A stretch of DNA of 51,159 bases from Akkermansia muciniphila (GTDB lineage: Bacteria > Verrucomicrobiota > Verrucomicrobiia > Limisphaerales > UBA9464). The position numbers and the translations under genes were made by a program. Below the pieces are notes generated by a model. That model did no database searches, was not told the DNA's origin, and worked only from the letters and a program-made list of their open reading frames with translations. Position 1 is the stretch's first letter, and each line of letters begins with the position of its first letter. This document shows, in pieces, positions 403 to 49,356 of this stretch. Where the stretch lies: contig CAMDGV010000032.1 of the NCBI GenBank assembly GCA_945898055.1, forward strand, positions 1 through 51,159. The letters are read 5' to 3'.

Positions 403-3400
403 ATGAGTCTGCAGTCATATTGTTTGACCACTACGGTTGCTTTTGTTCTTGGATTGGTTGGGTTGGGCCAGCCTCTGCAGGGAGTTGCTGGGGAGATTGG
501 GGGCACGATTCAATTTAATCGAGATATCCGGCCGATTCTCTCCGATCAGTGCTTTTCTTGTCATGGCCTCGACGCGAAAAAGCGGAAGGCTGGATTACGC
601 TTAGATTTGTCTGAGGGCGCGACTCAGCCCAATAAGGAAGGTCAAGTCGCCGTACGGGCTGGGAATCTAAAAGAAAGCCAACTGTGGCAGCGTATTTTGT
701 CTTCAGATCCTGAGGAAGTTATGCCGCCGCCTGAAACCCATAAATCGCTTAATACGGAGCAGAAAGAATTGATTCGAAGTTGGATTTTGCAGGGTGGTTC
801 TTATCAAAAACATTGGGCTTTTGAGCCAATTAGCTCGCCTAGTGTGCCCCAAGATCTTCACGAGTATGGACATCCGGTAGATGCTTTTTTGAGGGGGCGT
901 TTGGCGACAGTCGGGTTCGAGGCTTCAGGCGAGGCGGATCGATCAACTTTAATTCGACGGTTGAGTTTTGATCTCCGCGGTTTGCCACCCACGCCTGAGG
1001 AGTCTAAGGCCTATTTGAGCGATACGAAGCCGGGCGCCTATCTTCGTTTGGTGGATCGATTTTTAGCCGCACCTCAATATGGGGAACAAATGGCGCGGTA
1101 CTGGCTCGATGTGGCCCGGTATGCTGACACCCACGGCTTGCATTTGGATAATGAGCGGCAGATGTGGGCTTACCGAGATTGGGTCGTCTCGGCCTTTAAC
1201 AAGAATCTGAGTTTTGATCGTTTTACCATTGAACAACTTGCAGGAGATTTACTGCCAAATCCAACCCAAGATCAGCAGATTGCAACAGGCTTTAATCGAA
1301 ACAATATCACCACGGGTGAGGGTGGGGCGATTGATTCGGAGTTCATCTTTCGTTATGCGGTTGATCGGACGGCCACCACGGTGCAAGCGTGGATGGGTCT
1401 GACTGCCGGTTGTGCCGTCTGTCATGATCACAAGTTTGATCCCATTTCGCAGAAGGAGTTTTATTCACTCTACGCATTCTTCCACAGCGCGGCAGATCCG
1501 GCGATGGACGGCAATGCCTTGAGGACTCCGCCGTTGGTTCAAGTGAAACGGGTTGATGATGACGTCAACTTGGCTCAGATAGACTCGGCCATCCAGGCGG
1601 AGGAATCCAAGAGCGTGGCGGCTTTAAGGGGGGTAGTTTATGTCGATCCGGCCGATTTAATTCCGCGATCTGAGCCGAAAGAAATGGAAGCAATTTGGTT
1701 TGATGAGGGTGTGCCAATCGGGACCAAGGGGCAGCCAAAGCCCCTTCTGATTACCTCATCCGAAGGGCCGGTGAAAGTGGGTAAACTGGCTTTGAAGCTG
1801 AAGGGTACTGGGCTAATCCAAGAGGTTTTTGAGGGAGTAAATTTCGATGTTCCTCACTCCGCTCGAGTTTTTGCCCATGTTTATTTGGATCCAGCCAATG
1901 CACCGAAGTTAGTGATGTTACAGTTTTATCAAGGTACGTGGGAACATCGGGTGATTTGGGGTGATGCCGATGCGACCGTCTGGGGGCAGAAGGGGACTGT
2001 GAGTCGACAATATGCGGGAGCTCTACCCAAGGCTGGGGAGTGGGTTCGCTTGGAATTCGAAGCAGAAAAGCTGGGCTTAAAATCGGGTGAACCGTTGACC
2101 GGAATAGCCTACACGCAAGTGGACGGTACGGTGTATTGGGATAAGACGGGCATTTCCGGTCGGATCGATCGAGCCAATGACGCAGCGACTTCTTTGGCTG
2201 CGTGGGTTCGGCAGTATGAGGGGAAGGACGCGAAGGATTTAACCGAACCGGTTCGATCGATTTTCAAGGCGACAACCTTGGTCACGCGGACAGAAGTTCA
2301 GAAGAAGGTTTTGAAGGATTACTACCTGTCGAAAGTATGTCTTGAGACCCGCCCTATTTTTGAACCTTTGCAAGGTGCGATAGCCGAGTTAAAGAAGAAA
2401 CGAGAACAGTACGATGCAGGTATCCCGCAATCGTTTACTTGGCGCGATTTGGAGAAGCCTCGTGACAGTTTTGTGATGATCCGAGGCCAGTACGACAAGC
2501 CTGGCGATAAGGTGACACGATCAACACCGGCGGCCTTCCCTCAGTTGAAATCTTCGGGGGCATTACCCAACCGGCTTGACTTAGCTCGATGGTTGGTTTC
2601 TGACGAGCATCCTCTGACTGCGCGGGTCACTGTGAATCGATTTTGGCAGCAAATTTTCGGGTTTGGATTAGTGAAAACCTCTGATGATTTTGGGTCTCAA
2701 GGTGAGCCTCCGAGTCACCCCGAGTTGTTGGATTGGTTGGCTTCAGATTTCCGACGATCAGGATGGGACATTAAGGGATTGGTTCGGCTTTTGGTGACCT
2801 CAGCGGCCTATCGGCAGAGTGCGCGGGTTTCGCCAGAAGTTTTGCAGAAAGATCCCGAGAACCGACTTTTGGCTCGAGGCCCTCGGTTTCGGTTAGATGC
2901 GGAACAGTTACGGGACAACGCCCTGTATGTTGGTGGATTACTTGATTCAACTCTTGGAGGGAGGGGAGTTCGACCGTATCAACCGCCCAATATTTGGGAA
3001 CCCGTTGCTTACAGCGGATCCAACACTCGCAGGTACACTGAAGACACAGGGATCGGATTGTATCGACGGAGTTTGTATACCTTTTTTAAGCGCACGGCAC
3101 CCGCACCGGCGATGTCTACTTTTGACGTCCCCAATCGGGAGCAAAGTTGCCTACGCAGAGAACGGAGCAACACTCCTTTGCAGGCCCTTCAATTATTGAA
3201 TGATGTGCAACATTTTGAAGCGGCTCGAGGGTTGGCGGTGCGGATGATGCTGCGGGGTGGTGGAACGGCAGATCAACGGATCCGCTATGCCTATCAAGCG
3301 GTTCTGGCACGGGAACCCGACAAGGCGGAGGCGGAAGTCGTGCAAGCGGCGTTCAGTCGGTTTTTAGTCCGATATCAAGCAGATCCAGAAGGGGCGAAAA

Positions 3401-3519
3401 AGGCGACTACCTTTGGAGAATCCAAACCGCCCCTCGATCTTTCGGTTTCCGACCTAGCCGCTTACACCTTGGTGGCAAACTTAATTTTAAATCTCGACGA
3501 AACCGTGACCCGTAACTGA
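403..3519 (+). CDS. PSCyt1/PSCyt2/PSD1 multidomain cytochrome-type protein (DUF1549/DUF1553), pair 1
   Basis: Exported multidomain protein of the planctomycete/verrucomicrobial PSCyt1-PSCyt2-PSD1 family, 1038 residues, a usual length for the family. A Sec-type signal covers about residues 1-30. A PSCyt1 domain carries the heme motif C50-F-S-C53-H54. DUF1549 (PSCyt2) spans about residues 155-365 and carries C337-A-V-C340-H341 followed by DHKFDP. A beta-rich module of unknown fold lies at about 430-600. PSD1 (DUF1553) runs from about 720 to the end, with an NRFWQQ-like segment. Two c-type hemes are therefore expected. The natural substrate of the family is not established. The stop is 3 bases before the ATG of a DUF1501 gene, so the two are almost certainly one transcription unit. 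Its closest relative in the window, judged by the shared NRDIRPILSD and RPYQP segments, is the protein at 44794-47904. Confidence 0.93.
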   Translation: MSLQSYCLTTTVAFVLGLVGLGQPLQGVAGEIGGTIQFNRDIRPILSDQCFSCHGLDAKKRKAGLRLDLSEGATQPNKEGQVAVRAGNLKESQLWQRILSSDPEEVMPPPETHKSLNTEQKELIRSWILQGGSYQKHWAFEPISSPSVPQDLHEYGHPVDAFLRGRLATVGFEASGEADRSTLIRRLSFDLRGLPPTPEESKAYLSDTKPGAYLRLVDRFLAAPQYGEQMARYWLDVARYADTHGLHLDNERQMWAYRDWVVSAFNKNLSFDRFTIEQLAGDLLPNPTQDQQIATGFNRNNITTGEGGAIDSEFIFRYAVDRTATTVQAWMGLTAGCAVCHDHKFDPISQKEFYSLYAFFHSAADPAMDGNALRTPPLVQVKRVDDDVNLAQIDSAIQAEESKSVAALRGVVYVDPADLIPRSEPKEMEAIWFDEGVPIGTKGQPKPLLITSSEGPVKVGKLALKLKGTGLIQEVFEGVNFDVPHSARVFAHVYLDPANAPKLVMLQFYQGTWEHRVIWGDADATVWGQKGTVSRQYAGALPKAGEWVRLEFEAEKLGLKSGEPLTGIAYTQVDGTVYWDKTGISGRIDRANDAATSLAAWVRQYEGKDAKDLTEPVRSIFKATTLVTRTEVQKKVLKDYYLSKVCLETRPIFEPLQGAIAELKKKREQYDAGIPQSFTWRDLEKPRDSFVMIRGQYDKPGDKVTRSTPAAFPQLKSSGALPNRLDLARWLVSDEHPLTARVTVNRFWQQIFGFGLVKTSDDFGSQGEPPSHPELLDWLASDFRRSGWDIKGLVRLLVTSAAYRQSARVSPEVLQKDPENRLLARGPRFRLDAEQLRDNALYVGGLLDSTLGGRGVRPYQPPNIWEPVAYSGSNTRRYTEDTGIGLYRRSLYTFFKRTAPAPAMSTFDVPNREQSCLRRERSNTPLQALQLLNDVQHFEAARGLAVRMMLRGGGTADQRIRYAYQAVLAREPDKAEAEVVQAAFSRFLVRYQADPEGAKKATTFGESKPPLDLSVSDLAAYTLVANLILNLDETVTRN

Positions 3520-3522
3520 ATT

Positions 3523-4992
3523 ATGAATCCACTTTACGATTACAGCTTAACCCAGACTCGACGCCAATTTTTTGGCAACACCGGTATTCGGTTGGGCGGT
3601 TTGGCTTTGGCCACCCTCGGGACGGGGTCAGCCAGGCGGTTGCTGGCGGCGAATTCAGAGAGAGTCCACCCGCCCCTACCGGGATTGCCCCATTTTGCTG
3701 CCAAAGCGAAGCACGTCATTTATCTGCACATGAATGGAGCCCCATCTCAGTTGGATCTCTGGGATTATAAGCCAAGCTTGCGAGAGTATTTTGACAAGGA
3801 GTTGCCGGATTCAGTCAAGAATGGGCAGCGGATCACCACCATGACCTCAGGACAGACTCGTTTCCCGGTGGCTCCGTCGATGTTTAAATTTACCCAGCAC
3901 GGTCAAAGCCAACGCTGGATCAGCGAACTTCTTCCGCATACCGCTGGCATCGTGGATGACATTGCCTTAATCAAATCAGTCCAGACGAATGCCATTAACC
4001 ATGATCCCGCCTGCACCTTTGTCATGACCGGTGCTGAGGTTCCTGGAAAAGCCAGTTTAGGATCTTGGCTTGCTTACGGTTTAGGGAGTGAAAATAACGA
4101 TCTTCCCGCCTTTGTCGTGCTAACCCCGAATTGGTCGTCTAAATCGGATGCCCAAGCCCTTTTTACACGGATGTGGAGCAGCGGATTTCTAGCGACCAAA
4201 TATTCTGGGGTCGCACTTCGAGCCGTCGGTGATCCGGTTCTTTACATCGAGAACCCACCGGGCGTGGATCGATCCGATCGGCGCGTTTTATTGGACGCCT
4301 TGAATCGATTAAACCAGAGAACTCATGATCAGTTAGGTGATCCAGAGACCCTCACTCGGATTGCGCAATACGAGATGGCTTTCCGGATGCAATCGAGCGT
4401 CCCAGATCTGATTGATTTTAAAAAGGAGCCCAAGTCCACAACCGAACTTTATGGTGAAGAAGTGAACAAGCCTGGCTCTTATGCGGCGAGCGCTTTGTTA
4501 GCTCGAAGGTTGGTCGAACGAGGCGTTCGCTGTGTGCAAGTATTGCATCGAGGTTGGGATCAGCACGGAAGTTTACCGTCGGAAATCCGGGCCCAATGTA
4601 AGGACATCGATCAGGCGACAGCGGGCTTGGTGAAGGATCTTAAGTCGCGTGGCTTGTTCGAGAGTACCCTCATTGTCTGGGGCGGCGAGTTCGGTCGGAC
4701 GGTTTATTCACAGGGTAAATTATCGGCGACCGATTATGGTCGGGATCATCATCCGCGCAATTTCTGTATGTGGATGGCTGGCGGTGGAATTAAGCCGGGG
4801 ATTCAGTACGGAGAATCGGATGACTTTAGCTATAATGTCGCCGAGAACCCCGTCCACATTAACGAATTAAATGCCACCCTCTTGCAGTGCCTCGGTATTG
4901 ATCACCGTCGATTTAGTTTTAAGAGTCAGGGACTTGATCAACGCCTGACTGGAGTTGAGGAAGTGCACCCCGTGAAGGCTCTGATTGCCTGA
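3523..4992 (+). CDS. DUF1501 family exported protein, pair 1
   Basis: 489-residue DUF1501 protein. The family belongs to the alkaline phosphatase/sulfatase-like superfamily by fold, and its reaction is undefined. The N-terminus has a twin-arginine-like motif (TRRQFF, residues 12-17) followed by a Gly/Ala/Leu-rich stretch, so Tat export of a folded protein is likely. Family landmarks are visible: the [21 protein letters not shown]-like start of the core, WGGEFGRT near residue 385, and GRDHHP near 405 with the paired histidines that probably bind metal. It starts 3 bases after the PSD1 gene and is followed by a hairpin with a T tract at 5004-5037, so the two genes form a closed operon. Family assignment is sure and function is unknown. 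Confidence 0.93.
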
Positions 4993-21825: not shown

Positions 21826-23730
21826 TTAGATTTCGACCTGCATACCGAGTTCGACAACTCGGTTGGCAGGTAGGCGGAAAAAGGCAGTGGCACTGGTTGC
21901 ATTGCGGGACATGATGGCAAACAAATGTTCTCGCCAGATGGCCATCCCAGCTCGGCTGCGCGTCGGGAGAACGGTTTCGCGACTCAGAAAGAAAGTGGTT
22001 TCCATTTCCTTAAACTCGAGTCCATGGGCGCTACAGAGGTCAAGGATGTTGAGAATGTTCGGCTGTTCCATGAACCCATAGCGGGCGCGGACCCTCCAAA
22101 ACCCGACCTCGAGACGTTCAACCGTGAGACGTTCACTCGTTTCTACTTGGGAATCTTCCTCGATGATAACCGTCAGGAAAACAATCCGTTTATGAAGTAC
22201 TTTGTTATGTTTGAGATTGTGGAGTAAGGCGATCGGTGTGCCTTCGGAACTACCGGCCAGATAGACGGCCGTACCGGCCACTCGGGAAGGATCTCGGCGC
22301 TTGATATCGTCGATAAATTTCAGTGCGGGCATAGCGTTGGCACGGACCCGTTCCCAAACCAGTTGACGCCCTCGTTTCCAGGTGCTCATCAAAACAAAAA
22401 TAGCTGAGGCGACAGCGAGGGGAAACCATCCGCCGTTCTCAATTTTAAGTAGATTAGCCACGGCGAAGGGGAGTTCGACGATCAGCGCGGCACCACTAAT
22501 GAGAGTCGCCAGAGTGCGTGACCAACCAAACAGCCTTTGGCAGGCGAAGAAAAAAAGGAAGGTGGTAGTGATCATAGTGAAGGTGACCGCCACCCCGTAG
22601 GCCATCGCCAGATTGCTGGAAGATCTAAACTGAACAATGATCCAAATACAGGCAATCATCAGCACCCAATTTACTTGCGGCATATAGATTTGCCCGCGTT
22701 CCTTTTGAGAGGTGTGTTCGATGACCAATCGAGGCATGTAACCGAGTTGGATGGCATGCATGGTCAGCGAGTAAGCCCCCGAAATAAGAGCTTGGGACGC
22801 AATGATAGCGGCAGCGGTAGCCAATCCAATCATCGGATACAGTCCCCAACGAGGACAGAGTTGGTAGAAAGGATTGAAGGACGCACTATCCGCAAGGCTT
22901 GGCTGGCTCAAAAGTAGGGCCCCTTGACCTAGATAATTGAGGGTCAATGCGGGCATAACGATACTGAACCAAGCCACTCGGATCGGGCGCGGACCGAAGT
23001 GTCCCATATCGGCGTAGAGAGCTTCCCCGCCGGTTACAACTAGAACGACCGAACCGAGAACCACCAGTCCGTGGGATTTTTGGTCGAGAAGAAAATTAAG
23101 TGCGTGGATCGGGTTGAGGGACTTGAGGACGTCGGGATTTAGAAGAATGCCTCGAACTCCAAGGATCCCAATCGTGATAAACCAAACCAGAGTAATTGGA
23201 CCAAAAATGCGTCCGACCTTCGCAGTGCCAGCTTGTTGGGCAACAAACAGCAGAATAATAATAAGGACGGCTAGAGGAACGATATAGTGATCCAGCTTAT
23301 GAGTGGCGACAGTGAGTCCTTCGAGGGCACCGAGGACAGAAACCGCGGGCGTAATAATCCCATCTCCGTAGAGCAGACAGGCCCCGGCAACGCCTAAAGA
23401 GGCCATAAAACTGACGAATTTATTGCGATGGCCCCGTTTACGTTCAGGGAAAGCGAGGGAGAGTAGGGCTAGAATGCCGCCTTCGCCCTTATTGTCAGCT
23501 CGGAGGACAAACACGAGATATTTAATCGCAACGATAAGAACCAGCGCCCAAAGAATGAGGGACATCACCCCCAGTATATTGGCTGGGGTAGCCGCCGCTC
23601 CATGTCCTTTCGCGAAGCATTCCTTGACTGCGTAAAGAGGGCTGGTGCCGATATCACCGTAGACAATACCGAGTGCCCCAAGAGTTAATCCGGCAAGGCG
23701 TCGACCGGTGCAGGGGATGGGAGTGCTCAT
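21826..23730 (-). CDS. kup: Kup-type potassium uptake transporter
   Basis: KUP/HAK/KT family K+ transporter, 634 residues from the chosen ATG, near the usual 620-630. The N-terminal signature GIVYGDIGTSPLYAVKE is intact and is followed by a membrane portion of about twelve helices to roughly residue 460. A C-terminal cytoplasmic domain of about 170 residues follows. A GTG three codons upstream (23739) is an alternative start. It probably acts as a proton-coupled K+ importer. Its leader contains a ydaO-like riboswitch candidate (23910-24101), so expression should respond to cyclic di-AMP, the second messenger that controls potassium uptake in many bacteria. Confidence 0.96.
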   Translation of the reverse strand: MSTPIPCTGRRLAGLTLGALGIVYGDIGTSPLYAVKECFAKGHGAAATPANILGVMSLILWALVLIVAIKYLVFVLRADNKGEGGILALLSLAFPERKRGHRNKFVSFMASLGVAGACLLYGDGIITPAVSVLGALEGLTVATHKLDHYIVPLAVLIIILLFVAQQAGTAKVGRIFGPITLVWFITIGILGVRGILLNPDVLKSLNPIHALNFLLDQKSHGLVVLGSVVLVVTGGEALYADMGHFGPRPIRVAWFSIVMPALTLNYLGQGALLLSQPSLADSASFNPFYQLCPRWGLYPMIGLATAAAIIASQALISGAYSLTMHAIQLGYMPRLVIEHTSQKERGQIYMPQVNWVLMIACIWIIVQFRSSSNLAMAYGVAVTFTMITTTFLFFFACQRLFGWSRTLATLISGAALIVELPFAVANLLKIENGGWFPLAVASAIFVLMSTWKRGRQLVWERVRANAMPALKFIDDIKRRDPSRVAGTAVYLAGSSEGTPIALLHNLKHNKVLHKRIVFLTVIIEEDSQVETSERLTVERLEVGFWRVRARYGFMEQPNILNILDLCSAHGLEFKEMETTFFLSRETVLPTRSRAGMAIWREHLFAIMSRNATSATAFFRLPANRVVELGMQVEI

Positions 23731-24179
23731 GCGAGGCACATGAGATCAATTAAGGCGTCCGGGATGATCCGGCCGGTGGAATTTCGAGTCTGATTGGGTG
23801 GGGGTGGCAAGGAGGGGCGAAGGCGTTTCGAATTCATAGATAGTGCGATAAACCGACGACCTGAGGCCGCCTTTTTCGCAAATCCGCCCGACGGATTCTG
23901 CGCTTAGGGACTGCCTTTCCAACTGCCTACGAGGTTAGCTGACGGGCTAGGACTCGGAAATGTCCCGCTGGGTTTACCCCTGCTGCGCCCCATGCCGAAG
24001 TTTCGACTGTGGTTCCCCCGTGCCCAACGTTCTGGTCGACGCTGGACTTCGACTGCGGTGTCGAGTTAAACAAGTTTGCCTTCCCTGTCAATGCAAGGCA
24101 GAGAATGCGTAAATCAATTTACCGACTCAGCTCTTGGCAAAGTGGCCTCAATTGTAAGTACTTGAGGTTCTAGAATAAA
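23731..24179. other. Kup leader and 3' region of the DedA gene
   Basis: This gap between kup and the DedA gene carries no protein gene. On the minus strand it holds the ydaO-like aptamer (23910-24101). Just downstream is an extra hairpin whose arms are 23877-23886 and 23892-23902, the second with one bulged base. It is followed by A residues in the RNA, so it is not an ordinary terminator. Next to the DedA stop, CCTCAA (24146-24151) and TTGAGG (24162-24167) form a weak hairpin that might end the DedA transcript. Confidence 0.6.
23910..24101 (-). ncRNA. Candidate ydaO/yuaA-type c-di-AMP riboswitch in the kup leader
   Basis: Read on the minus strand, bases 23946 to 23923 give CCCGTCAGCTAACCTCGTAG followed by GCAG, the hallmark 3' core of the ydaO/yuaA leader family (RF00379). 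A second hallmark, the GGGGGAACC segment, occurs upstream at 24011-24020. A GGGGTAAACC stretch and a GGGAC/GTCC hairpin lie between the two, in the family order. CUGCCU (24101-24096) can pair with AGGCAG (23928-23923) to close the aptamer. The element precedes a K+ transporter gene, a known target class of this riboswitch. The 5' and 3' limits are approximate, and the expression platform is unclear because no T tract follows. This is recognition by eye and was not scored with a covariance model. Confidence 0.8.
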
Positions 24180-24830
24180 TTAGGGCTTAGGGGTCGCTCG
24201 ACGTGTTTTCCACGCCTCAAAAAGCACCGGTAAAAGAGAAATAAAGATAATGCCAATGACGATGATCTCGAACCGTTTTTTGACAAACTCGAACTGACCG
24301 AGAAACCAACCGGCTGGAAGAATAAGAACCACCCAAGCAATTGCTCCACCGATGTTGAAGGCCATGAATCTTCGGTAGTGCATGGCACCCATACCTGCTA
24401 CGAAGGGAGTGAAGGTGCGGACGATCGGGATAAATCGGGCGATAACGACTGTCTTCGGGCCGTAAACATCAAAGAACGATCGCGTGCGATTCAAGTATTC
24501 CGGTTTGATAATTTTGGGAAACCGCTCGGTAAGAAAACGTCCCGCAAGACTTCCGACGGAATAATTGAGTGTGTCACCGAAGATAGCTGCAACGATCATA
24601 GTCAATCCGGCGATCCAAACATTGAGACCCGATTCTGGATTAGCTGCCACCGCGCCCACGGCGAAAAGAAGGGAATCACCCGGAAGAAATGGGGTAACCA
24701 CGAGTCCAGTTTCTGCAAAGATGATCGCGAACAGCACGGCATAAATCCAGGGGCCATTGTCGCGGGTGAGGTTAAAAAGATGATCCTGCAGATGCAAAAG
24801 GATATCGAGCAGATGCCGGAGGAGGTCCAT
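24180..24830 (-). CDS. DedA-family (VTT/SNARE-associated) membrane protein
   Basis: 216-residue integral membrane protein of the DedA family, thought to act in undecaprenyl phosphate or phospholipid translocation and proton-dependent membrane homeostasis. The key acidic pair is present: E40 (FAETGLV) and D52 (FLPGDSLLF). The conserved arginines are R132 and R138 (ARFIPIVRTFTPF), followed by the typical VAGMGAMHYRRF segment. Four to five hydrophobic spans are visible, with a basic C-terminal tail. It lies 24 bases downstream of a small DUF485-like gene in the same orientation, so they may be cotranscribed. Confidence 0.94.
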   Translation of the reverse strand: MDLLRHLLDILLHLQDHLFNLTRDNGPWIYAVLFAIIFAETGLVVTPFLPGDSLLFAVGAVAANPESGLNVWIAGLTMIVAAIFGDTLNYSVGSLAGRFLTERFPKIIKPEYLNRTRSFFDVYGPKTVVIARFIPIVRTFTPFVAGMGAMHYRRFMAFNIGGAIAWVVLILPAGWFLGQFEFVKKRFEIIVIGIIFISLLPVLFEAWKTRRATPKP

Positions 24831-37342: not shown

Positions 37343-40300
37343 ATGCAGATGCCTTACCCTACCCTCCGAAACGTTTCCTTTTGGCTGAGGATGCTGGGCG
37401 TTGGGTGGTGCGGTAGTGTACTGACCGCGGCGGATCATCGAATCGATTTTTTCGAGCAAAAAATCCGACCCGTGCTCGTTGAGCACTGTTATGAGTGCCA
37501 CAGTCAACTCGGAACTCGACGGAAAGGTGGACTCCTCTTGGATTCAGCGGCGGGAGTTTTGAAGGGCGGCGACTCCGGTCCGGTGTTGCGGCCAGGAAAG
37601 GCGCACGAGAGTCCTTTAATTCGCGCCATTAGGTATGGAGACAGAGAACTTCAGATGCCGCCTAAAGGTCGACTACCGGAATCGGTGATTGCGGATTTGG
37701 TTCGATGGATTGACGACGGTGCATTCGACCCAAGGGAGGGGCAAATGGGGGTGGCTAAAGTGATTGCCTCCCGGACCAACACAGAGCACTGGGCCTTTCA
37801 ACCCATTCAAGCGAAAGGAATTCCAGCGGGCAAATCAGCCCATCCGATTGACCGTTTCATTGAGGAACGATTGGCTCGGATAGGGTTGTCGATTGGGGCC
37901 GAAGCAGAGCGTCGTACCTTGATCCGGAGGGTGAGTTTTGATCTCACCGGTTTGCCACCTGAGATGAGTGCCATCCATGCCTTTTTGCAGGATACCGAAC
38001 CCGGTGCCTATGAGCGATTGTTGGACCGATATTTAGCCTCGCCCCAGTACGGTGAACGCTGGGGGCGTTGGTGGTTGGACGTGGCCCGTTATGCGGATAC
38101 CAATGGCCAGGATGAAAATAAGGTGATGGCCAATGCTTGGCGTTATCGGGACTGGGTGATTCGATCCTTTAACCGAAACCAACCCTTTGACTCATTTATT
38201 ATTGATCAACTTGCGGGGGATCTAGTGTCCACCAATGGCGTGGATGAGAAGTCGATTTTTGATCGGTGGACGGCGACCGGTTTTCTGGTGCTAGGCCCAA
38301 AAATGTTAGCTGAGCAGGATAAGCCAAAACTATTGATGGATTTGGTCGATGAACAAATCGAGGTAACAACTCGGGCTTTCCTAGGACTAACGGTCGGTTG
38401 TGCTCGATGTCATGATCACAAATTTGATCCTGTTTCTGCCCGAGACTATTACGCCTTAGCCGGTATTTTTCGGAGTACGAAAACGATGGATAACCTGAAC
38501 TTTGTTTCAAAATTTAACGAGCGCCAGATCACCGACCGTCTGGCATTGGACGCTCGAGAGTTCTATTTTCGGCAGGTCGAAGCGGTCAAATCATCCCTAG
38601 CTTTCGCACTGAGACAGGCTAATCAGTCACTGCTTGATCGCTGGCGGGCGCTGCTTCCTCAGGTGGTTGATCGTAGTCTTGCTGGTCACTCTGTTGAGGA
38701 TCTGTCTTTGCCAAATCCAGTCGCGCTGGAGCGTTTAAAGTCTGTGCTTTTGTCCGAGTCTTCATCTAATCAAATCGGTCGAACTTTACGTCGTTTGGCG
38801 AATGATCCAGGGGCCTTAGCAGCGGCATTTTCCGAGGCTGAAGTTACCGGGCAAAACCAAAACGAGAGGGTGGCAGTAGGCAAGGTGGGCGCTGGCTTTC
38901 GCGCAACTGGGAGCACTTTTATTGAGCGCGATTCCTCTTCAGTTCTTGAACCCAATCAACTCACCGTTGAAACGTGGTTTCAGACCCCTTCATTTTCAAC
39001 TCAGGGAGATGCGCGTCGCTGGTTGGTTAGCAAAAATAGTAACGAAGAATCGGAGGGGCACTACGCCCTAGTGCTCGATGGTGCTCGAGCCGGGGCTTAT
39101 TTAAATGTGGGCGGCGGGCCTAAGAATATTTTTACGGTTTGGAGCTCAGAGGGACTGCTAAAACCAGGGCAGTGGCATCATCTCGCTTTGACTTACGACG
39201 GTTCGACTTTTCGTCTCTTTGTCGATGGCAAGCCGGCCGGAAAAACCGTCGTTGGGCGAACTCGAGTTCCTGGAAAAGGTCCTCTGGTATTGGGGCGCCG
39301 CGGGGACGGCTATGGGGGCTTTAAAGGGGTGCTCGATGACGTTTGGATATTTTCTCGAGCCTTGAACAAAGCGGAGATTGAGGCTCGCTTTCGGAACCTA
39401 GGTTCGGGGTCATTGGAGGGCAGTGTGGCGCATTGGGATTTTAATAGCTTAACCGAATCCGAGGCGCGTTTTTATGCTCTTATTGAACTGCGCGATTTTT
39501 TAATAGGCTCCGGAGGGGTTTTTGCTCTTCCCTCTGATCCGCGACCTTATTATCCAGCGTCGGTTCGTGATCGGATCCGAGCATTGGAAGACGAGAAGGA
39601 GAGGATGACGGCCAACGCGCCTCCTCCTTTGGCCATGGTACTCGCGGTAGAAGAAGGTAAACCTGTTTCATTACCTATACACGTTCGAGGGAGTCACCTA
39701 AATCTCGCCCGAGATCCGGTGCCGCGAGGATTTATTCGCGGGGTGGGTCAAACTAGAGCCGGCGCTATTTCGGAAAATCGCAGCGGGCGACTCGAACTCG
39801 CCAGTTGGCTGATCGATGAAACTAATCCGCTGACGGCGCGCGTCTTGGTCAACAGAATTTGGCAAGGGCACTTTGGGGAAGGATTAGTGCGAAGCTCGGA
39901 TAATTTTGGCGTGCGCGGTGAAGTTCCATCGCACCCAGAGTTGCTCGATTGGTTGGCGCAGGAGTTTATTCGTTCGGGTTGGGACGTTAAGTACCTGCAC
40001 CGTCTAATTTTGAAGAGCGCCGCTTGGAGGCAAACGGGATTAGTCGTCCCCCTCGGAGCAACCGCCGTCGCCTTGGATCCAGACAACCGACTGCTCGGGC
40101 GTTTTCCTCGGCAGAGACTGGAAGCTGAGATGATACGAGACGCACTCATAAGCGTCTCCGGTCAGTTGGATTTGGCGATTGAGGGATCATTGGTGAATTG
40201 GAAAAACGATGAATACACACCCGAAGACACCGTGAGTGCGGAAACCCTCAGGCGATCGGTATATTTACCAGTGGTAAGGGATCGAGTTTACGACGTCTTT

Positions 40301-40642
40301 ACCCTTTTTGATTTTGCCAATCCTAGTGTGGGAACATCTCGAAGGACACCGACGGTGGTCTCTCATCAAGCCTTGTTCTTCTTGAACAGCCCACTGGTTA
40401 AATCTGCCGCAGATAAGCTGGCCCGTTTGGTGATCGTTTCGAGTCCATCGGATCGAACAGATCGGATTAAATTGGCTGTAGAACGAGTTTGGGGACGTCT
40501 CCCCACGCTGACCGAACAGCGAATGGCAGAGTCTTTTCTAAAGACGCTAGAGCCTTTAGGGAGTGATGAAATATCTCTTCAATCTTGGGCCGCTTGGTGT
40601 CAGGTTCTTTTTGCTTCGAATGAATTTGTTTACCGAGAGTAG
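37343..40642 (+). CDS. PSCyt1/PSCyt2/PSD1 protein with a LamG-like insert, pair 2
   Basis: Exported protein of the PSCyt1-PSCyt2-PSD1 family, 1099 residues, with a Sec-type signal (about residues 1-30). Heme motifs are C49-Y-E-C52-H53 in PSCyt1 and C353-A-R-C356-H357-DHKFDP in DUF1549. The feature that sets it apart is a LamG/concanavalin-like domain at about residues 533-684 (LTVETWFQ, GQWHHLALTYDG, FRLFVDGKPAG, GVLDDVWIFSRAL). This should bind a glycan or another extracellular ligand. PSD1 (DUF1553) follows from about 800, with LTARVLVNRIWQGHFGEGLV. It is followed by a DUF1501 gene 159 bases downstream, a wider gap than in the other two pairs. The function of the family is not established. 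Confidence 0.92.
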   Translation: MQMPYPTLRNVSFWLRMLGVGWCGSVLTAADHRIDFFEQKIRPVLVEHCYECHSQLGTRRKGGLLLDSAAGVLKGGDSGPVLRPGKAHESPLIRAIRYGDRELQMPPKGRLPESVIADLVRWIDDGAFDPREGQMGVAKVIASRTNTEHWAFQPIQAKGIPAGKSAHPIDRFIEERLARIGLSIGAEAERRTLIRRVSFDLTGLPPEMSAIHAFLQDTEPGAYERLLDRYLASPQYGERWGRWWLDVARYADTNGQDENKVMANAWRYRDWVIRSFNRNQPFDSFIIDQLAGDLVSTNGVDEKSIFDRWTATGFLVLGPKMLAEQDKPKLLMDLVDEQIEVTTRAFLGLTVGCARCHDHKFDPVSARDYYALAGIFRSTKTMDNLNFVSKFNERQITDRLALDAREFYFRQVEAVKSSLAFALRQANQSLLDRWRALLPQVVDRSLAGHSVEDLSLPNPVALERLKSVLLSESSSNQIGRTLRRLANDPGALAAAFSEAEVTGQNQNERVAVGKVGAGFRATGSTFIERDSSSVLEPNQLTVETWFQTPSFSTQGDARRWLVSKNSNEESEGHYALVLDGARAGAYLNVGGGPKNIFTVWSSEGLLKPGQWHHLALTYDGSTFRLFVDGKPAGKTVVGRTRVPGKGPLVLGRRGDGYGGFKGVLDDVWIFSRALNKAEIEARFRNLGSGSLEGSVAHWDFNSLTESEARFYALIELRDFLIGSGGVFALPSDPRPYYPASVRDRIRALEDEKERMTANAPPPLAMVLAVEEGKPVSLPIHVRGSHLNLARDPVPRGFIRGVGQTRAGAISENRSGRLELASWLIDETNPLTARVLVNRIWQGHFGEGLVRSSDNFGVRGEVPSHPELLDWLAQEFIRSGWDVKYLHRLILKSAAWRQTGLVVPLGATAVALDPDNRLLGRFPRQRLEAEMIRDALISVSGQLDLAIEGSLVNWKNDEYTPEDTVSAETLRRSVYLPVVRDRVYDVFTLFDFANPSVGTSRRTPTVVSHQALFFLNSPLVKSAADKLARLVIVSSPSDRTDRIKLAVERVWGRLPTLTEQRMAESFLKTLEPLGSDEISLQSWAAWCQVLFASNEFVYRE

Positions 40643-40801
40643 CCGAGCTTATGGTGAAACTATTGGGCCGCTTGCTTTCAGGTTCTCAGTTTTTTGCTTT
40701 TAATGATTTTTATTGAAGTATCTTGGCCGGTCGTCGCAAAGTTAGAAGTCAATCACTGAAAGAACAATTCAGTTACTGGGGTTGGTCATTTTAACCTACG
40801 T

Positions 40802-42211
40802 GTGAGTGCATTTTTTACATCGCCACGATCCCGCCGTCAGTTACTGCGGGAATGTAGCGGTGGATTTGGCAGTTTAGCCTTGCTGGGGTTGCTGTCGTCC
40901 TTGGAGTCGAAGGCCACTCCCGGACTGGGCCGTCCGTTAGCAGTGCGCCCGCCGCTTTTCCCGGCACGCGCCAAACGGGTTATTTTTCTCTTTATGCACG
41001 GAGGTCCCTCGCACGTGGATACCTTTGATTATAAGCCGCTGCTGATTCGGGATTCCGGTAAACCGTTACCCTTTGACAAGCCTCGAATTCAGTTTGCAAA
41101 AACTTCCAATTTGAGGAAGTCGCCTTGGGAATTTCGCCCCTATGGTCAGAGTGGCACCATGGTGAGTGATTTGTTTCCATCAGTGGGGGCGTGTGCTGAT
41201 GACTTGTGTTTGCTGAGATCCGTTCACGGAACAAATGAAGCGCATGGGGGGGCGCTTTTGAAGCTACATACGGGTTCCGACACCGCAGTGAGGCCGAGCC
41301 TTGGGTCGTGGGTTTCCTACGGATTAGGGTCAGAAAACCAGAACCTGCCCAGTTTCCTGACCATTAACCCCACCCTTGGTCATGGCGGAGTGGGTAATTG
41401 GTCGAGTGCGTTTTTACCGGCGGTGAACCAAGGAACTCCAATTGGAGGTGGGATGCCTGTCGCTCAAGCGTCCATCAAGTATTTACACCATCCAGAAACC
41501 GATCAGCGGATCCAACGAGCGCAACTCGATTTGCTCGGTGAAATCAACCGAGATCATTTGGATCGAGTGGGTGGTGATGCAGCGATGGAGGCTCGGATTG
41601 AATCTTTTGAACTGGCCTTTCGCATGCAACGAGAGGCCCCAGAGGCCATGGATTTGGGGAAGGAAACCGAGGCGACTCGAAAGCTGTACGGCCTCGATAA
41701 TCCAGGGACAGCCTCGTTTGCGCGTCAGTGCTTGTTAGCTCGACGATTCAGCGAGCGAGGGGTTCGATTTGTACAAGTCACCCACGGGTATTGGGATCAG
41801 CACGAAGACTTAACCAAAGACCACGGGCGCTTGGCTGCCGAGGTAGATCGCCCTATCGCCGGGTTGCTCCGGGATTTAAAATCAAGGGGGTTACTCGACG
41901 AAACGCTGGTGATTTGGGGAGGAGAGTTTGGGCGCACGCCGACCCTCCAAGGAAAAGATGGGAGAGATCATCATCCGCATGCTTTTACCCAATGGATGGC
42001 TGGCGGCGGTGTAAAGGGTGGGTTTAGTTATGGGGTTACCGACGATTACGGGTTTTATTGTGTCGATCAGAAAGTTCACGTACACGATTTGCATGCCACT
42101 ATTTTGGGATTGATGGGACTGGATCATGAGGCCTTGACTTATCGTTACGCGGGGCGTGATTTTCGATTAACCGATGTTTCTGGTCGAATCGTTCGAGAGA
42201 TATTTGCTTGA
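40802..42211 (+). CDS. DUF1501 family exported protein, pair 2
   Basis: 469-residue DUF1501 protein with a GTG start at 40802. The N-terminus SRRQLLREC (residues 10-18) is a twin-arginine-like motif, followed by a Leu/Gly-rich core, so Tat export is likely. Family landmarks are [37 protein letters not shown] and GRDHHPHAF, with His pairs that probably bind metal. Its last bases (TTGA) overlap the start of a hybrid histidine kinase gene, suggesting translational coupling to a regulator. It differs from the DUF1501 proteins of pairs 1 and 3, which share RIAQYEMAF-x-MQSSVP, by having [16 protein letters not shown] at that place. Confidence 0.92.
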
Positions 42212-44694: not shown

Positions 44695-44793
44695 GCCGTG
44701 GCCGACCTCCGGTCTTCGTGTCGATTAAAGTGAGTACCTAGAGCACTTCAGAGTTGGAATTAGAACCTTCTTTGTCAGAGTTTGGCTTCAGCA

Positions 44794-47700
44794 ATGAGAC
44801 CTTTAGCTTTCCCCTTTTTCTCCCTGTCGTTTTTTGGTGTCTTTTTAGGAACAGGTCTCCTTTTTGGCGAGTCGTCGAAGGCGCCTCTTACTTTCAACCG
44901 AGATATCCGCCCGATTCTTTCTGATGCGTGTTTTTCGTGTCATGGCCCGGATGCACAGAAGGTGAAGGGAGGGTTGCGATTAGATCAGCGTGAGGCGGCA
45001 CTGCAACCGGCCAAATCAGGCAAGACAGCACTGGTCCCGAATCATCCGGAAAGCAGTGAAATTATGCGTCGTCTCTTGACATCGGATCCCGACGAACAGA
45101 TGCCCCCGCCGGAATCGCACAAGGTCTTGACTGCGGACCAGAAGTCCCTCCTTCAGCGTTGGATTGCTGAAGGGGCAGTCTATCAGGGGCATTGGGCCTA
45201 TACTCCCCCCGTGCGACCCAAGGTGCCGGCCGGGGTGGGTGCGGTCGATGCCTTAATCCTTCAACCACTGAAGGCCCGTGGATTGCGGCCGTCGCCCGAG
45301 GCTGACCGGCGGATATTGGCTCGGCGTTTATACTGGGATTTGATCGGTGTGCCGCCGTCGCCCGAGATGGTAAGTCGCTTTGAATCTGACCGCGAACCGG
45401 GGGCTTACGAGCGTTTGGTGGATCGTTTAATGGCTTCCCCACAGTATGGTGAACGCATGGCCATTGGATGGTTGGATCTCGTGCGCTTTGCTGACACCAT
45501 CGGGTATCATTCAGATGTGCCTCGCAATATCTGGCCTTATCGTGACTATGTGATTCGAGCTTTCAATGCGAACTTTCCCTTTGATCGCTTCACGGTGGAG
45601 CAACTTGCGGGTGATCTTTTACCTCATCCAACTCAGGATCAATTAGTGGCCTCTGGATTCAACCGACTTTTGCTCACAACCGAGGAAGGGGGGGCTCAGG
45701 AAAAGGACTATGAATCGCGGTATTTGACCGATCGAGTGCGGGCGGTGGGCACGGTGTGGTTGGGGCAGACTTTAGGTTGCGCCCAGTGCCATGATCACAA
45801 GTTTGATCCGATTCGTGCGCGTGATTTTTACTCGATGGGTGCTTTTTTTGCGGACGTAAAGGAGGGGATCATTGCGGCACGTGAACCGGGCATGCTGGTG
45901 CCGGATGAGATTCAAGGGAAGGCATTGAAACAGTTGACCGATGAAGCGGGGCGGGCGGGATCTGCCTTTGAGGCACCGCACCCAGAATTCGATGCGGCTT
46001 TTGAAAAATGGCAGCGGGAAAATTTAAGTGCGTTGGAATCGGAGGCACTTTGGATCGCCAGAGTTCCCGAGTCCGTTCGTGCTTTGAATGGGACCCAGTG
46101 GACGGTGCGCGAAGATCGGTCGATTTTGGCGAGTGGGCCCAAGCCGGATACGGAGACTGTGGTCTTGGTTCTTGCTGGTCTTGCAGAAGGTATAAAAGGG
46201 CTACGGTTGGAGGTGTTACCTGATAAATCATTGCCCTCCAAGGGACCGGGGCGCTCCGGTAACGGAAATTTTGTTTTGACCGAAGTTCTTGCACGAGTCG
46301 TTAAGGAGGGCAAAGAAGTGCGACGTTTGCCTTTTGCTACGGCTTGGGCCAACCACGAGCAGAGTACTTTAGTGGAACAAAATCCCTATAGGCTTTGGTC
46401 TGCGGCTTCGGTGATTGATGGCGACGTGAAAGGGGTTTTTGCCGGTTGGGCTATCCTGCCCAATGCGGGGCAGGCGGCTGAGTTGCGACTGGGTTTTCGC
46501 GATGGAGTGGCACTGGAGGTTGGGGAGAGTTTGGAAATCGAACTTCAGCAGAATCACGGACACGGAGCCCATACATTAGGTTGTTTCCGTCTGAGTACCT
46601 CGACCGATTCGAGAGGATTAAAGCCCATGCTATGGCCACTTTTACCAAAAGAAATCGCTGAAAAGCTTCAGGTGCCGGCCGCCAAACGGACTCCAGCACA
46701 ACAGACAGCGTTGAGGGATAAATTTAAGCTGGAAGCTCCCGAATTTGCCGCCCTACGAAAGCAAAAAGCGGATGCTGAGAAAGCGGTAGCCGATTTTGAG
46801 AAGTCGCTTCCCCGAACCCTCATCACCCAACGAACAGATAAACCTCGAACGGTACGTATTCTGCCTCGAGGCAATTGGATGATTGAGACTGGGGAGGTGA
46901 TAGAACCCGCTCTTCCAGGGTATTTAAAAACGGCGGGGCGGACTGAGGGCGGACGGCGTTTAAATCGATTAGATTTAGCCCAATGGGTGGTTTCTCCCGA
47001 GAATCCGTTGACTGCGAGGGTCGTTGTGAATCGGTTTTGGAAACAGTTCTTCGGTATCGGATTGTCAAAAGTCTTGGATGACTTTGGTGCGCAAGGGGAA
47101 CCCCCCAGAAACCCGGAACTGTTGGACTGGTTGGCGGTTGAGTTCCGTGAAAGCGGGTGGGATGTTAAGCACCTCGTTCGGACGTTGGTGCTGAGTCAAG
47201 CTTACCGACAGGTATCGACGGCTTCACGCGAGGAGGTGGCGCGTGATCCAGAGAATCGAGATCTGGGGCGCCAGAATCGCTGGCGAATTGATGCTGAACT
47301 AGTCAGGGACACCGCCTTATCATTCTCAGGCCTCTTGGTTACTCAAATTGGGGGGCCGAGTGCGCGTCCTTATCAGCCGGATGGCTACTGGGAAAATCTA
47401 AACTTTCCTCAACGAGCCTATCAAGCGAGTGCGGGATCAGATCAGTACCGTCGAGGAGTCTACACTTGGTGGCAACGTTCGTTTATGCATCCCAGTATGT
47501 TAGCCTTTGATGCGGCAACCCGTGAGGAGTGCGCCGCAGAAAGGAATCGTTCGAATATTCCTCAGCAAGCTTTGGTATTATTGAATGATCCTAGTTACGT
47601 CGAGGCCGCTCGGATGTTCGCCCTTCGTATCCTGACTGAAGGCGGCGGGGACGATCGCTCTCGCTTAATTTGGGCTTGGCGCCGCGCCTTAGCTCGAGAT

Positions 47701-47904
47701 CCCTCGAGGGAGGAACTAGCCACGCTGGGGCAGTTATTGCAGACTCAGCAGACAAGCTTTGCGAAAGATCCAGCGGCGGCGACTCGGTATGCTGGATTCG
47801 GAGGCGCCGCAATTCCTGCCGGTATCGATGCAGCACGATTGGCCGCTTGGACCGATATTGCACGTACAGTGTTAAATCTACACGAAACTATCACCCGCTC
47901 TTGA
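44794..47904 (+). CDS. PSCyt1/PSCyt2/PSD1 multidomain cytochrome-type protein, pair 3
   Basis: 1036 residues from the ATG at 44794. The frame also opens at a TTG at 44782, but the ATG leads into a clean Sec signal peptide. Heme motifs are C46-F-S-C49-H50 (PSCyt1) and C329-A-Q-C332-H333-DHKFDP (DUF1549). Between DUF1549 and PSD1 lies a module with GIKGLRLEVLPDKSLP, unlike the central modules of the other two. PSD1 (DUF1553) begins near residue 720 with NRLDLAQWVVSPENPLTARV. The protein closely resembles the pair 1 protein in both ends (NRDIRPILSDACFSCHGPD, RPYQPDGYWE) and so is probably its paralogue. The stop is 3 bases before the ATG of the next DUF1501 gene. Confidence 0.93.
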   Translation: MRPLAFPFFSLSFFGVFLGTGLLFGESSKAPLTFNRDIRPILSDACFSCHGPDAQKVKGGLRLDQREAALQPAKSGKTALVPNHPESSEIMRRLLTSDPDEQMPPPESHKVLTADQKSLLQRWIAEGAVYQGHWAYTPPVRPKVPAGVGAVDALILQPLKARGLRPSPEADRRILARRLYWDLIGVPPSPEMVSRFESDREPGAYERLVDRLMASPQYGERMAIGWLDLVRFADTIGYHSDVPRNIWPYRDYVIRAFNANFPFDRFTVEQLAGDLLPHPTQDQLVASGFNRLLLTTEEGGAQEKDYESRYLTDRVRAVGTVWLGQTLGCAQCHDHKFDPIRARDFYSMGAFFADVKEGIIAAREPGMLVPDEIQGKALKQLTDEAGRAGSAFEAPHPEFDAAFEKWQRENLSALESEALWIARVPESVRALNGTQWTVREDRSILASGPKPDTETVVLVLAGLAEGIKGLRLEVLPDKSLPSKGPGRSGNGNFVLTEVLARVVKEGKEVRRLPFATAWANHEQSTLVEQNPYRLWSAASVIDGDVKGVFAGWAILPNAGQAAELRLGFRDGVALEVGESLEIELQQNHGHGAHTLGCFRLSTSTDSRGLKPMLWPLLPKEIAEKLQVPAAKRTPAQQTALRDKFKLEAPEFAALRKQKADAEKAVADFEKSLPRTLITQRTDKPRTVRILPRGNWMIETGEVIEPALPGYLKTAGRTEGGRRLNRLDLAQWVVSPENPLTARVVVNRFWKQFFGIGLSKVLDDFGAQGEPPRNPELLDWLAVEFRESGWDVKHLVRTLVLSQAYRQVSTASREEVARDPENRDLGRQNRWRIDAELVRDTALSFSGLLVTQIGGPSARPYQPDGYWENLNFPQRAYQASAGSDQYRRGVYTWWQRSFMHPSMLAFDAATREECAAERNRSNIPQQALVLLNDPSYVEAARMFALRILTEGGGDDRSRLIWAWRRALARDPSREELATLGQLLQTQQTSFAKDPAAATRYAGFGGAAIPAGIDAARLAAWTDIARTVLNLHETITRS

Positions 47905-47907
47905 CCT

Positions 47908-49356
47908 ATGAATGAACTCTCTTTTCAACGTCTCTTTCTCGATCAACAACGGACCCGTCGTGTTTTCTTAGGCCGAGCCTCTCAAGGATTAGGCCTGTTC
48001 GCCTTGAGTTCTTTGTTGCGTCCGCAGTCCCTTCAAGCGGCCGGTCTTGGTGGGACGCCGAAGTTGGCTGGTTCGGTGATTCCCCGACACTTTCAACCAC
48101 GAGCCAAACGGGTTATTTGGCTGAGCATGGCGGGCGGTCCGTCGCATTTGGAAACCTTTGATCCAAAGCCAAAGCTCGCTGAAATGCATGGGAAACCCAT
48201 GCCAGATTCTTTTACAAAAGGTAAGCAAATCGCTCAGTTACAGGGTCAAAAACTAGTCTGTTATGGACCTCAGCACCCCTTTAAACGCTTTGGAAAAGCA
48301 GGGGTAGAATTATGCGAACTCTTTAAGCACATCGGGTCGGTCTCCGACGAGATTTGCTGGGTCCGATCGATGACCACCGAGGCGATTAACCATGATCCCG
48401 CCCACATGTTTATGAATACGGGATCACAGATTGCAGGACGCCCCAGTATGGGATCTTGGACGGTCTATGGTTTGGGATCTGAAGCGGAGAATCTCCCTGG
48501 GTTTGTGGTGTTGACTTCGCTCGGTCGTGGCGGACAGAACCAACCCATTGCCGCGCGTCAATGGGCGGCAGGTTTATTGCCAAGTCGGTTTCAAGGTGTG
48601 CATTTGCGTGGGAAGGGTGATCCGGTCATGTACCTCAGTGAACCCCCGGGTGTGACTCGTCAGGCCCAGCAACAGGTCGTGCAGACGGTAAATAAACTCA
48701 ATGCACAGCATGATGCCGTTGTCGATGATCCAGAAATTAGCACGCGGATTGCCCAGTACGAGATGGCTTTTCAGATGCAATCCAGTGTTCCTGAGCTAAT
48801 GAATGCCGCTTCTGAACCTGCGACCATTCAAGAATTGTACGGATGTAAACCAGGCGATGGATCTTTTGCCTCGAACTGTCTTTTAGCACGTCGCTTGGCG
48901 GAACGCGGCGTGCGATTTATTCAATTGTACCATAAGGATTGGGATCATCACGACAGTGTGAAGCAGGGTGTTGCGTATAAGGCAGAAGAGGTGGACCGCG
49001 CCTGTATGGCATTGATCACGGATTTGAAGCAGCGGGATATGTTGAAGGACACGGTGATTGTTTGGGCGGGTGAATTCGGGCGAACTCCCATGAGCCAAGG
49101 AGGCAGTGGTCGCGATCATCACAATGCAGGGTTTACCTTGTGGATGTGTGGTGGCGGCATCCGACCTGGAATAATTTATGGCGGCACCGATGAGTTGGGA
49201 TATGCCGCAGTGGATAGGCCGGTGGATGTGCACGACATCCATGCCACAGTGTTGAGGCAATTAGGGATTGAACACACTCGTTTGTCCTTAAAGTTTCAAG
49301 GGTTAGATGTCCGCTTAACTGGGATTGCAGGTAAGGTGATTGACTCGATTATCTGA
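47908..49356 (+). CDS. DUF1501 family exported protein, pair 3
   Basis: 482-residue DUF1501 protein. A twin-arginine-like motif (TRRVFLGRA, residues 14-22) precedes a Gly/Leu/Ser core, so Tat export is likely. Landmarks include RAKRVIWLSMAGGPSHLETFDPKP, WAGEFGRTPMSQGG and GRDHHNAGF. The second histidine of HH is followed by N rather than P, unlike pairs 1 and 2. It resembles the DUF1501 of pair 1 in INHDPA and [18 protein letters not shown], which supports duplication of the whole pair. It begins 3 bases after the PSD1 stop. No terminator is recognised immediately after it. Confidence 0.93.
   Translation: MNELSFQRLFLDQQRTRRVFLGRASQGLGLFALSSLLRPQSLQAAGLGGTPKLAGSVIPRHFQPRAKRVIWLSMAGGPSHLETFDPKPKLAEMHGKPMPDSFTKGKQIAQLQGQKLVCYGPQHPFKRFGKAGVELCELFKHIGSVSDEICWVRSMTTEAINHDPAHMFMNTGSQIAGRPSMGSWTVYGLGSEAENLPGFVVLTSLGRGGQNQPIAARQWAAGLLPSRFQGVHLRGKGDPVMYLSEPPGVTRQAQQQVVQTVNKLNAQHDAVVDDPEISTRIAQYEMAFQMQSSVPELMNAASEPATIQELYGCKPGDGSFASNCLLARRLAERGVRFIQLYHKDWDHHDSVKQGVAYKAEEVDRACMALITDLKQRDMLKDTVIVWAGEFGRTPMSQGGSGRDHHNAGFTLWMCGGGIRPGIIYGGTDELGYAAVDRPVDVHDIHATVLRQLGIEHTRLSLKFQGLDVRLTGIAGKVIDSII

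Follow-up and report, generated by a model that had tools for sequence, protein, structure and literature searches.

A c-di-AMP riboswitch aptamer upstream of kup in Verrucomicrobiota and a candidate output through a coupled leader ORF

Introduction

Members of the RF00379 (ydaO/yuaA) class of c-di-AMP riboswitches are defined by a pseudoknot in which the loop of the 3′ hairpin pairs with the 3′ tail of the aptamer. According to a 2019 report, c-di-AMP riboswitches had already been predicted to precede ktr, trk, kdp, and kup, and Verrucomicrobia are among the phyla concerned (PMC6488665). Riboswitches of K+ importers from other organisms are described in two papers as being OFF when ligand is bound (PMC6488665, PMC7288161), and two reports attribute ligand-induced transcription termination to the riboswitches of Bacillus thuringiensis kdp (PMC6488665) and Streptomyces rpfA (PMC10117811). 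A review describes riboswitches that join translation to Rho-dependent termination and lists ydaO among those whose bound state occludes the ribosome-binding site (PMC10907184). A tandem Na+-I/c-di-AMP architecture is also known, in which the Na+ aptamer lies upstream and a terminator stem follows each aptamer (PMC9337991).

Here we analyze an RF00379 aptamer ahead of kup in the window, which denotes the whole 51,159-nucleotide stretch of DNA under study. This locus shares with its class a full-length covariance match, a conserved core, the pseudoknot, and a downstream K+ importer gene. It differs from a typical member in that a terminator-like site is lacking, extra stems follow the aptamer, and a leader ORF ends at the start of the gene. 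The aptamer by itself is expected; what is newer concerns the output of the switch. We found no report of this arrangement in the literature searched, which was mostly without subscription papers and included the accessible parts of PMC6488665, PMC9337991, PMC10907184, PMC10117811, and PMC7288161. For a phylum that has few model organisms, the arrangement suggests a possible working mode of a common second-messenger riboswitch, and it offers a testable alternative to intrinsic termination that involves a leader ORF, translational coupling, and Rho.

Results

A c-di-AMP aptamer precedes kup

The aptamer and its surroundings comprise the following features.

24063–24091, minus strand: putative promoter-like element, with TTGACA at 24091–24086, a 17-nt spacer, and a weak −10-like TAACTC at 24068–24063
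23910–24064, minus strand: c-di-AMP (ydaO/yuaA) riboswitch aptamer, RF00379, from a covariance match
23916–23960, minus strand: aptamer pseudoknot, UUUCCGA (23960–23954) with UUGGAAA (23922–23916), from helix scores with own versus shuffled partners
21826–23730, minus strand: kup, K+ transporter gene with a probable ATG at 23730–23728, from PF02705 and PF22776 matches

An initial annotation of this DNA had proposed a ydaO-like c-di-AMP riboswitch in the kup leader and had called for a covariance search, which bears the proposal out. When the window was examined with cmscan, RF00379 scored 55.2 bits at 24064–23910 on the minus strand, compared to a gathering threshold of 38 (E = 3.6e-10). The match covers the full length of the model (positions 1–134) with neither end cut off, and it is the sole gathering-level Rfam match in the window. 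With laxer filters applied to 23400–24600, the only other match was to a lncRNA family at 15.5 bits (E = 2.7), as expected by chance. The assembly, which is 95% complete, carries one RF00379 copy, and this copy lies upstream of kup.

The pseudoknot covaries among relatives. In an alignment (A3) of 85 of the 127 distinct aptamers, the mean best-helix score was 6.48 when strands were matched with their own partners, versus 4.82 (SD 0.11, maximum 5.11) in 200 partner shuffles. We consider the aptamer call secure because of the RF00379 score and this covariation. The downstream ORF, 637 amino acids long when read from a GTG at 23739, matches PF02705 (E = 4.9e-180) and PF22776 (E = 1.6e-54), and kup thus provides the K+/osmolyte transport context of RF00379. 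Score, covariation, and gene context together support the assignment of a ydaO/yuaA-type c-di-AMP aptamer ahead of kup.

Synthesis of c-di-AMP and spread of the aptamer

The assembly contains one diadenylate cyclase (DAC) gene, a 277-amino-acid ORF on another contig (E = 5.6e-41), whose presence suggests that c-di-AMP could be synthesized. Its translation includes DGA and RHR, which we take to be DAC motifs, and the ORF is flanked by what are presumably a folP-like ORF and a 130-amino-acid CdaR-like ORF. A profile search of the assembly for PF07698, presumably the PgpH-type domain and the sole phosphodiesterase family sought, returned no match.

RF00379 matches are present in at least 85 of 384 genomes of the class, a lower bound because eight candidates per genome were scored under strict filters. 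Within the family of the window, the aptamer is found in 45 of 50 genomes and in all nine genera, and DAC family matches occur in 360 of the 384 class genomes. Because of these class-wide counts, and because Verrucomicrobia and kup already figure in the 2019 report (PMC6488665), finding this aptamer in front of kup is expected, and the aptamer belongs to a known kind. The cyclase gene that the initial annotation had asked to be sought is present, and c-di-AMP signaling in this lineage, which the riboswitch was said to imply, would carry little surprise.

A promoter-like element at the 5′ edge of the aptamer

When the region 38–75 nt before the aptamer core was searched, TTGAC was found 38–61 nt upstream of the core at 108 of 141 loci, compared to 95 of 2820 random 43-nt windows. 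For the genome, genus, and family of the window, the box is present at 56 of 59 loci. A promoter consensus scan of the window did not include the TTGACA box among its calls, and for this reason we speak of a putative promoter. If it is active, the RNA would begin near the first paired base of the aptamer, at its 5′ edge.

This element bears on a helix previously thought to close the aptamer, formed by 24096–24101 and 23923–23928. The segments CTGCCT (24101–24096) and AGGCAG (23928–23923) are complementary, yet we reject the helix as part of the aptamer. The 5′ arm lies upstream of the conserved −35-like TTGACA and therefore would not be transcribed, and the 3′ arm shares bases with pairs that the Rfam model places within the aptamer. 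Moreover, a full six-of-six complement is the best match in that region at only two of 19 loci of the genus, the window and its near-twin L112. The earlier description of the locus therefore holds for the aptamer and for the A residues that follow the next hairpin (see below), and fails for the closing helix.

Two alternative stems follow the aptamer

The minimum-energy fold and comparisons within the genus point to two potential stems between the aptamer and the leader ORF.

23864–23916, minus strand: stem A, AGGC (23916–23913) with GCCU (23867–23864), enclosing an apical hairpin at 23902–23877, from the minimum-energy fold
23855–23871, minus strand: stem B, GGCGGCC (23871–23865), loop UCA, GGUCGUC (23861–23855), from folds and genus comparison

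Stem A begins on the pseudoknot strand, and 17 nt separate the end of stem B from the first leader AUG. Because some bases of stem B also belong to the 3′ strand of stem A, the two are predicted to be mutually exclusive. We compared 13 of the genus's 15 kup loci, among them that of the window (alignment A4). A search found a counterpart of stem A at all 13 of these loci, where a 4- to 5-bp helix occurs with UA/GC-type exchanges (AGGGU/ACCCU, AGGGU/GCCCU, AGGGC/GCCCU, and GGGC/GCCC, with AGGC/GCCU in the window). Stem B retains six to eight of its eight pairs at the same 13 loci, mostly with one-sided wobble changes.

The predicted energies of the window platform are −25.3 kcal/mol for the form with stem A and −23.3 kcal/mol for the form with stem B, the latter with the first 6 nt held unpaired. 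Platforms of the family fold mildly better than their shuffled versions (mean z −1.5, with 19 of 36 below −1; −0.89 for the window), and RNAalifold found no consensus for alignment A2, which comprises 36 of the family's 41 kup loci. The ligand-free fold of the whole window leader (z −1.36) contains stem B. Since stem B is present without ligand, this fold gives no sign that ligand moves it.

A class-wide 3′ extension is associated with the aptamer

In many relatives, with differing genes behind, the pseudoknot strand is followed by GGGCGAUCCUCU, a hairpin, and then CCAYGGUCnCCCC. We aligned 54 such sequences (A1) in which the motif had been recognized by eye, a choice that favors stem A in its test. 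In the resulting class stem (GGG/CCC plus GAUC/GGUC), 90.5% of the cells are paired and four pairs changed on both sides. Its covariation score is 0.223, which none of 500 shuffles reached, versus 0.161, and slid versions of the stem pair at 36–69%. The 54 platforms also fold somewhat better than shuffled sequences (mean z −1.6, with 39 below −1). RNAalifold yielded no useful consensus for A1, its best result being a local helix of 3 bp that involves the GGG strand and competes with stem A, and a cmscan of 10 relatives revealed no Rfam family that covers the 3′ stems.

A covariance model of the extension (R1) was then searched against 97 genomes of the order, with 55 candidates scored per genome, such that weak matches may be lost. 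This search produced 60 matches at E ≤ 0.01 in 46 of the genomes. All 35 matches at E ≤ 1e-6 coincide with an RF00379 aptamer: 20 are loci of the class RF00379 search (three of them below its RF00379 cut-off, and most of them rows of R1 itself), and the 15 others all have RF00379 just upstream. Aptamer status was established for seven of the 25 weaker matches: one of five that were scanned lies on an aptamer, and two more (G308:C18 and G365:C87) are known aptamer loci. Of the 99 loci given, R1 matches 50, many of which are rows of the model.

Because all 35 strong matches sit on an RF00379 aptamer, these comparisons identify the extension as an aptamer-bound platform. A free-standing second aptamer is unsupported by the same distribution. 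We also considered, and rejected, a Na+-I tandem as the identity of the conserved extension. Like the tandem riboswitch described in PMC9337991, these loci have another structured element close to the c-di-AMP aptamer; here, however, that element lies downstream, and cmscan found no Na+ riboswitch family in the window, in 10 relatives (E ≤ 1), or in 20 further loci (E ≤ 0.05).

R1 has no match at the window locus (a single 9.5-bit match falls elsewhere), and the window platform is therefore a divergent relative of the class motif, to which it is linked by position and by its GG(G)C-type stem only.

A leader ORF ends at the start of kup and is rich in C

Two features occupy the interval between stem B and kup.

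23727–23837, minus strand: leader ORF of 36 codons (MNSKRLRPSLPPPPNQTRNSTGRIIPDALIDLMCLA), whose stop overlaps the kup ATG as ATGA, from ORF geometry
23748–23825, minus strand: C-rich, G-poor stretch within the leader ORF that resembles a Rho-loading region, from composition only

We defined a leader ORF by the first ATG in the interval 44–82 nt after the aptamer, with L096 and L137 set by hand. Such an ORF, starting 46–79 nt after the aptamer, is present at 36 of the family's 41 kup loci, and at 34 of these 36 its stop lies within 20 nt of the kup ATG, compared to 18.8 expected from dinucleotide shuffles of each leader. The expectation is that high, about half of the loci, because a C-rich leader has few stops; the chance value for the window's own ORF reaching the kup start is 0.62. 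The exact ATGA overlap of the window recurs, for a total of 15 loci, and the two ORFs that do not stop near kup are those of L142 (−39) and L146 (−31). The excess is also seen for 23 hand-chosen representatives (21 observed versus 10.6 expected, P = 5e-12) and for the 18 short ones among them (18 versus 10.5, P = 1e-7), with P values that assume an independence violated by relatives. The sequences of the short leader peptides are unconserved.

At the remaining five of the 41 loci (L119, L122, L131, L145, and L148), the ATG of kup itself lies 58–70 nt after the aptamer; L119 has a further short ORF that starts at 27 nt and overlaps kup. At five others (L088, L097, L137, L146, and L147), the slot is occupied by an ORF of 143–147 codons. 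Relatives in which kup or a longer ORF replaces the leader ORF serve as natural controls.

The small protein encoded in this slot at L088 (1897–2337, minus strand) carries an HTQR motif and has no Pfam match. A small protein with this motif, likewise lacking a Pfam match, also lies between the aptamer and a KimA-like ORF at L013 (927–1394, minus strand), and such proteins may have an accessory role in K+ import.

Within 78 nt of the leader ORF, C exceeds G by 24, an excess above that of 99.87% of all stretches of this length when both strands of the window are considered. The C skew of the ORF is 0.41; upstream of 17 other genes in the window, it averages −0.03 and reaches at most 0.20. For 30 of the 36 loci with leader ORFs, the mean skew is 0.22, versus 0.03 in the first 300 nt of kup; in three loci of one genus (L029, L111, and L143), it is negative. 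The assembly encodes Rho (two PF07497 matches). Judged by composition, the region after the aptamer resembles the C-rich, G-poor RNA of Rho-dependent riboswitches.

Discussion

The explanation that we favor, at a probability of roughly 0.5, is that the RNA functions as a c-di-AMP riboswitch and reduces expression of kup when the second messenger is abundant, a state that we take to mean high K+ as well, through ligand-gated translation of a leader ORF coupled to kup and probably backed by Rho. Ligand binding would fix the pseudoknot and thereby shift the balance between stems A and B, which in turn would set how easily ribosomes initiate at the leader AUG. Translation of kup would follow by coupling through the ATGA overlap, and an untranslated leader would leave C-rich RNA on which Rho could end transcription before kup is reached. 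The OFF response to ligand is borrowed from K+ importers elsewhere, as given in PMC6488665 and PMC7288161, and either stem could represent the OFF state. The proposed logic, wherein a lack of translation exposes C-rich RNA and Rho stops transcription, would be that of the Rho-linked translational riboswitches treated in PMC10907184; the ligand in our case is c-di-AMP, and the putative gate is a leader ORF coupled to the gene.

A lineage-wide version of this scheme, in which the aptamer would make no terminator, is a more tentative proposal. The short leader ORF, with a peptide of no relevance in itself, would act as a relay gated by the aptamer: when translated, it would provide ATGA coupling and shield Rho sites, and when silent, it would permit a Rho stop, with the class-wide 3′ stem as a conserved part of the relay.

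The same elements might operate without Rho, such that the platform masks or exposes the region where translation of the leader ORF begins, with the leader ORF coupled to kup. Such purely translational control would fit the 17-nt distance from stem B to the leader AUG, the five of 41 loci in which kup's own start takes the same slot, and L003 and L006 from another family of the class, where only 5–7 nt lie between the purine-rich pseudoknot strand GAGAGG and the first start codon. It also agrees with the ribosome-binding-site occlusion by bound ydaO listed in the review (PMC10907184). It leaves the C-rich leader unexplained, however, and no Shine–Dalgarno sequence was seen at the start of either the leader ORF or kup in the window. 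We therefore view control by translation alone as possible but rather doubtful.

More improbable is an ordinary Bacillus-type switch in which ligand lets an intrinsic terminator form, even though ligand-induced termination is what has been reported for kdp (PMC6488665) and rpfA (PMC10117811). In the window, the hairpin at 23902–23877 after the aptamer is followed by AAAAA (23876–23872) rather than a T run, and stem B is followed by GGUUUAUCG. A dedicated scan of the leader detected no terminator-like site, nor did a second tool applied between the aptamer and kup. The earlier proposal of a route other than intrinsic termination, which was based on those A residues, is thus supported at this locus by the lack of a terminator-like site. 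Across the class, terminator-like sites follow the aptamer at 22 of 139 loci, compared to 13.2 (range 8–18) in 10 rounds of shuffling, and some loci may therefore use termination. Ten of the 22 belong to the family of the window, six of them among its 41 kup aptamers (L111, L114, L138, L142, L143, and L146), with L114 in the genus of the window.

Finally, two pairs flagged as non-standard by the Rfam alignment (including the outermost, which adjoins a U-G pair) and the lack of an R1 match at this locus could be signs of a decayed relic that leaves kup unregulated, but a score of 55.2 bits, an intact pseudoknot, the presence of the aptamer ahead of kup at 41 family loci, and RF00379 matches in 45 of 50 family genomes make this very hard to believe.

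Other genes associated with the aptamer

In one family of the class (f36; L003, L004, L005, L006, and L010), a gene that we take to be KimA-like has its first start codon close behind the purine-rich pseudoknot strand. Because this start lies 5–7 nt after the strand at L003 and L006, the Shine–Dalgarno sequence of these genes may be located inside the aptamer pseudoknot.

At three loci, L080 (1171–2946), L048 (889–2784), and L050 (914–2269), the aptamer precedes SPFH/Band_7 proteins, with PF01145 E values of 8.9e-27, 2.3e-26, and a weaker 1.6e-6, respectively. These proteins are a possible further group of c-di-AMP targets. Our literature searches, mostly without subscription papers, found no paper that pairs a c-di-AMP riboswitch with flotillin, and none that mentions RF00379 together with Verrucomicrobia.

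The aptamer-linked protein of L083 (827–2653) ends in a universal stress domain (PF00582, E = 7.3e-11) and also matches a permease family, although below the cut-off of that family. Its GDWGTSKAY start recurs in ORFs at other loci, and proteins of this type possibly constitute a K+ importer family.

Elsewhere in the window, at 403–4992, 37343–42211, and 44782–49356, there are three pairs of ORFs that look alike by eye, in which an ORF of 1038–1099 amino acids is followed by one of 469–489 amino acids. These resemble what we presume to be paired planctomycete-type cytochrome and DUF1501-like genes.
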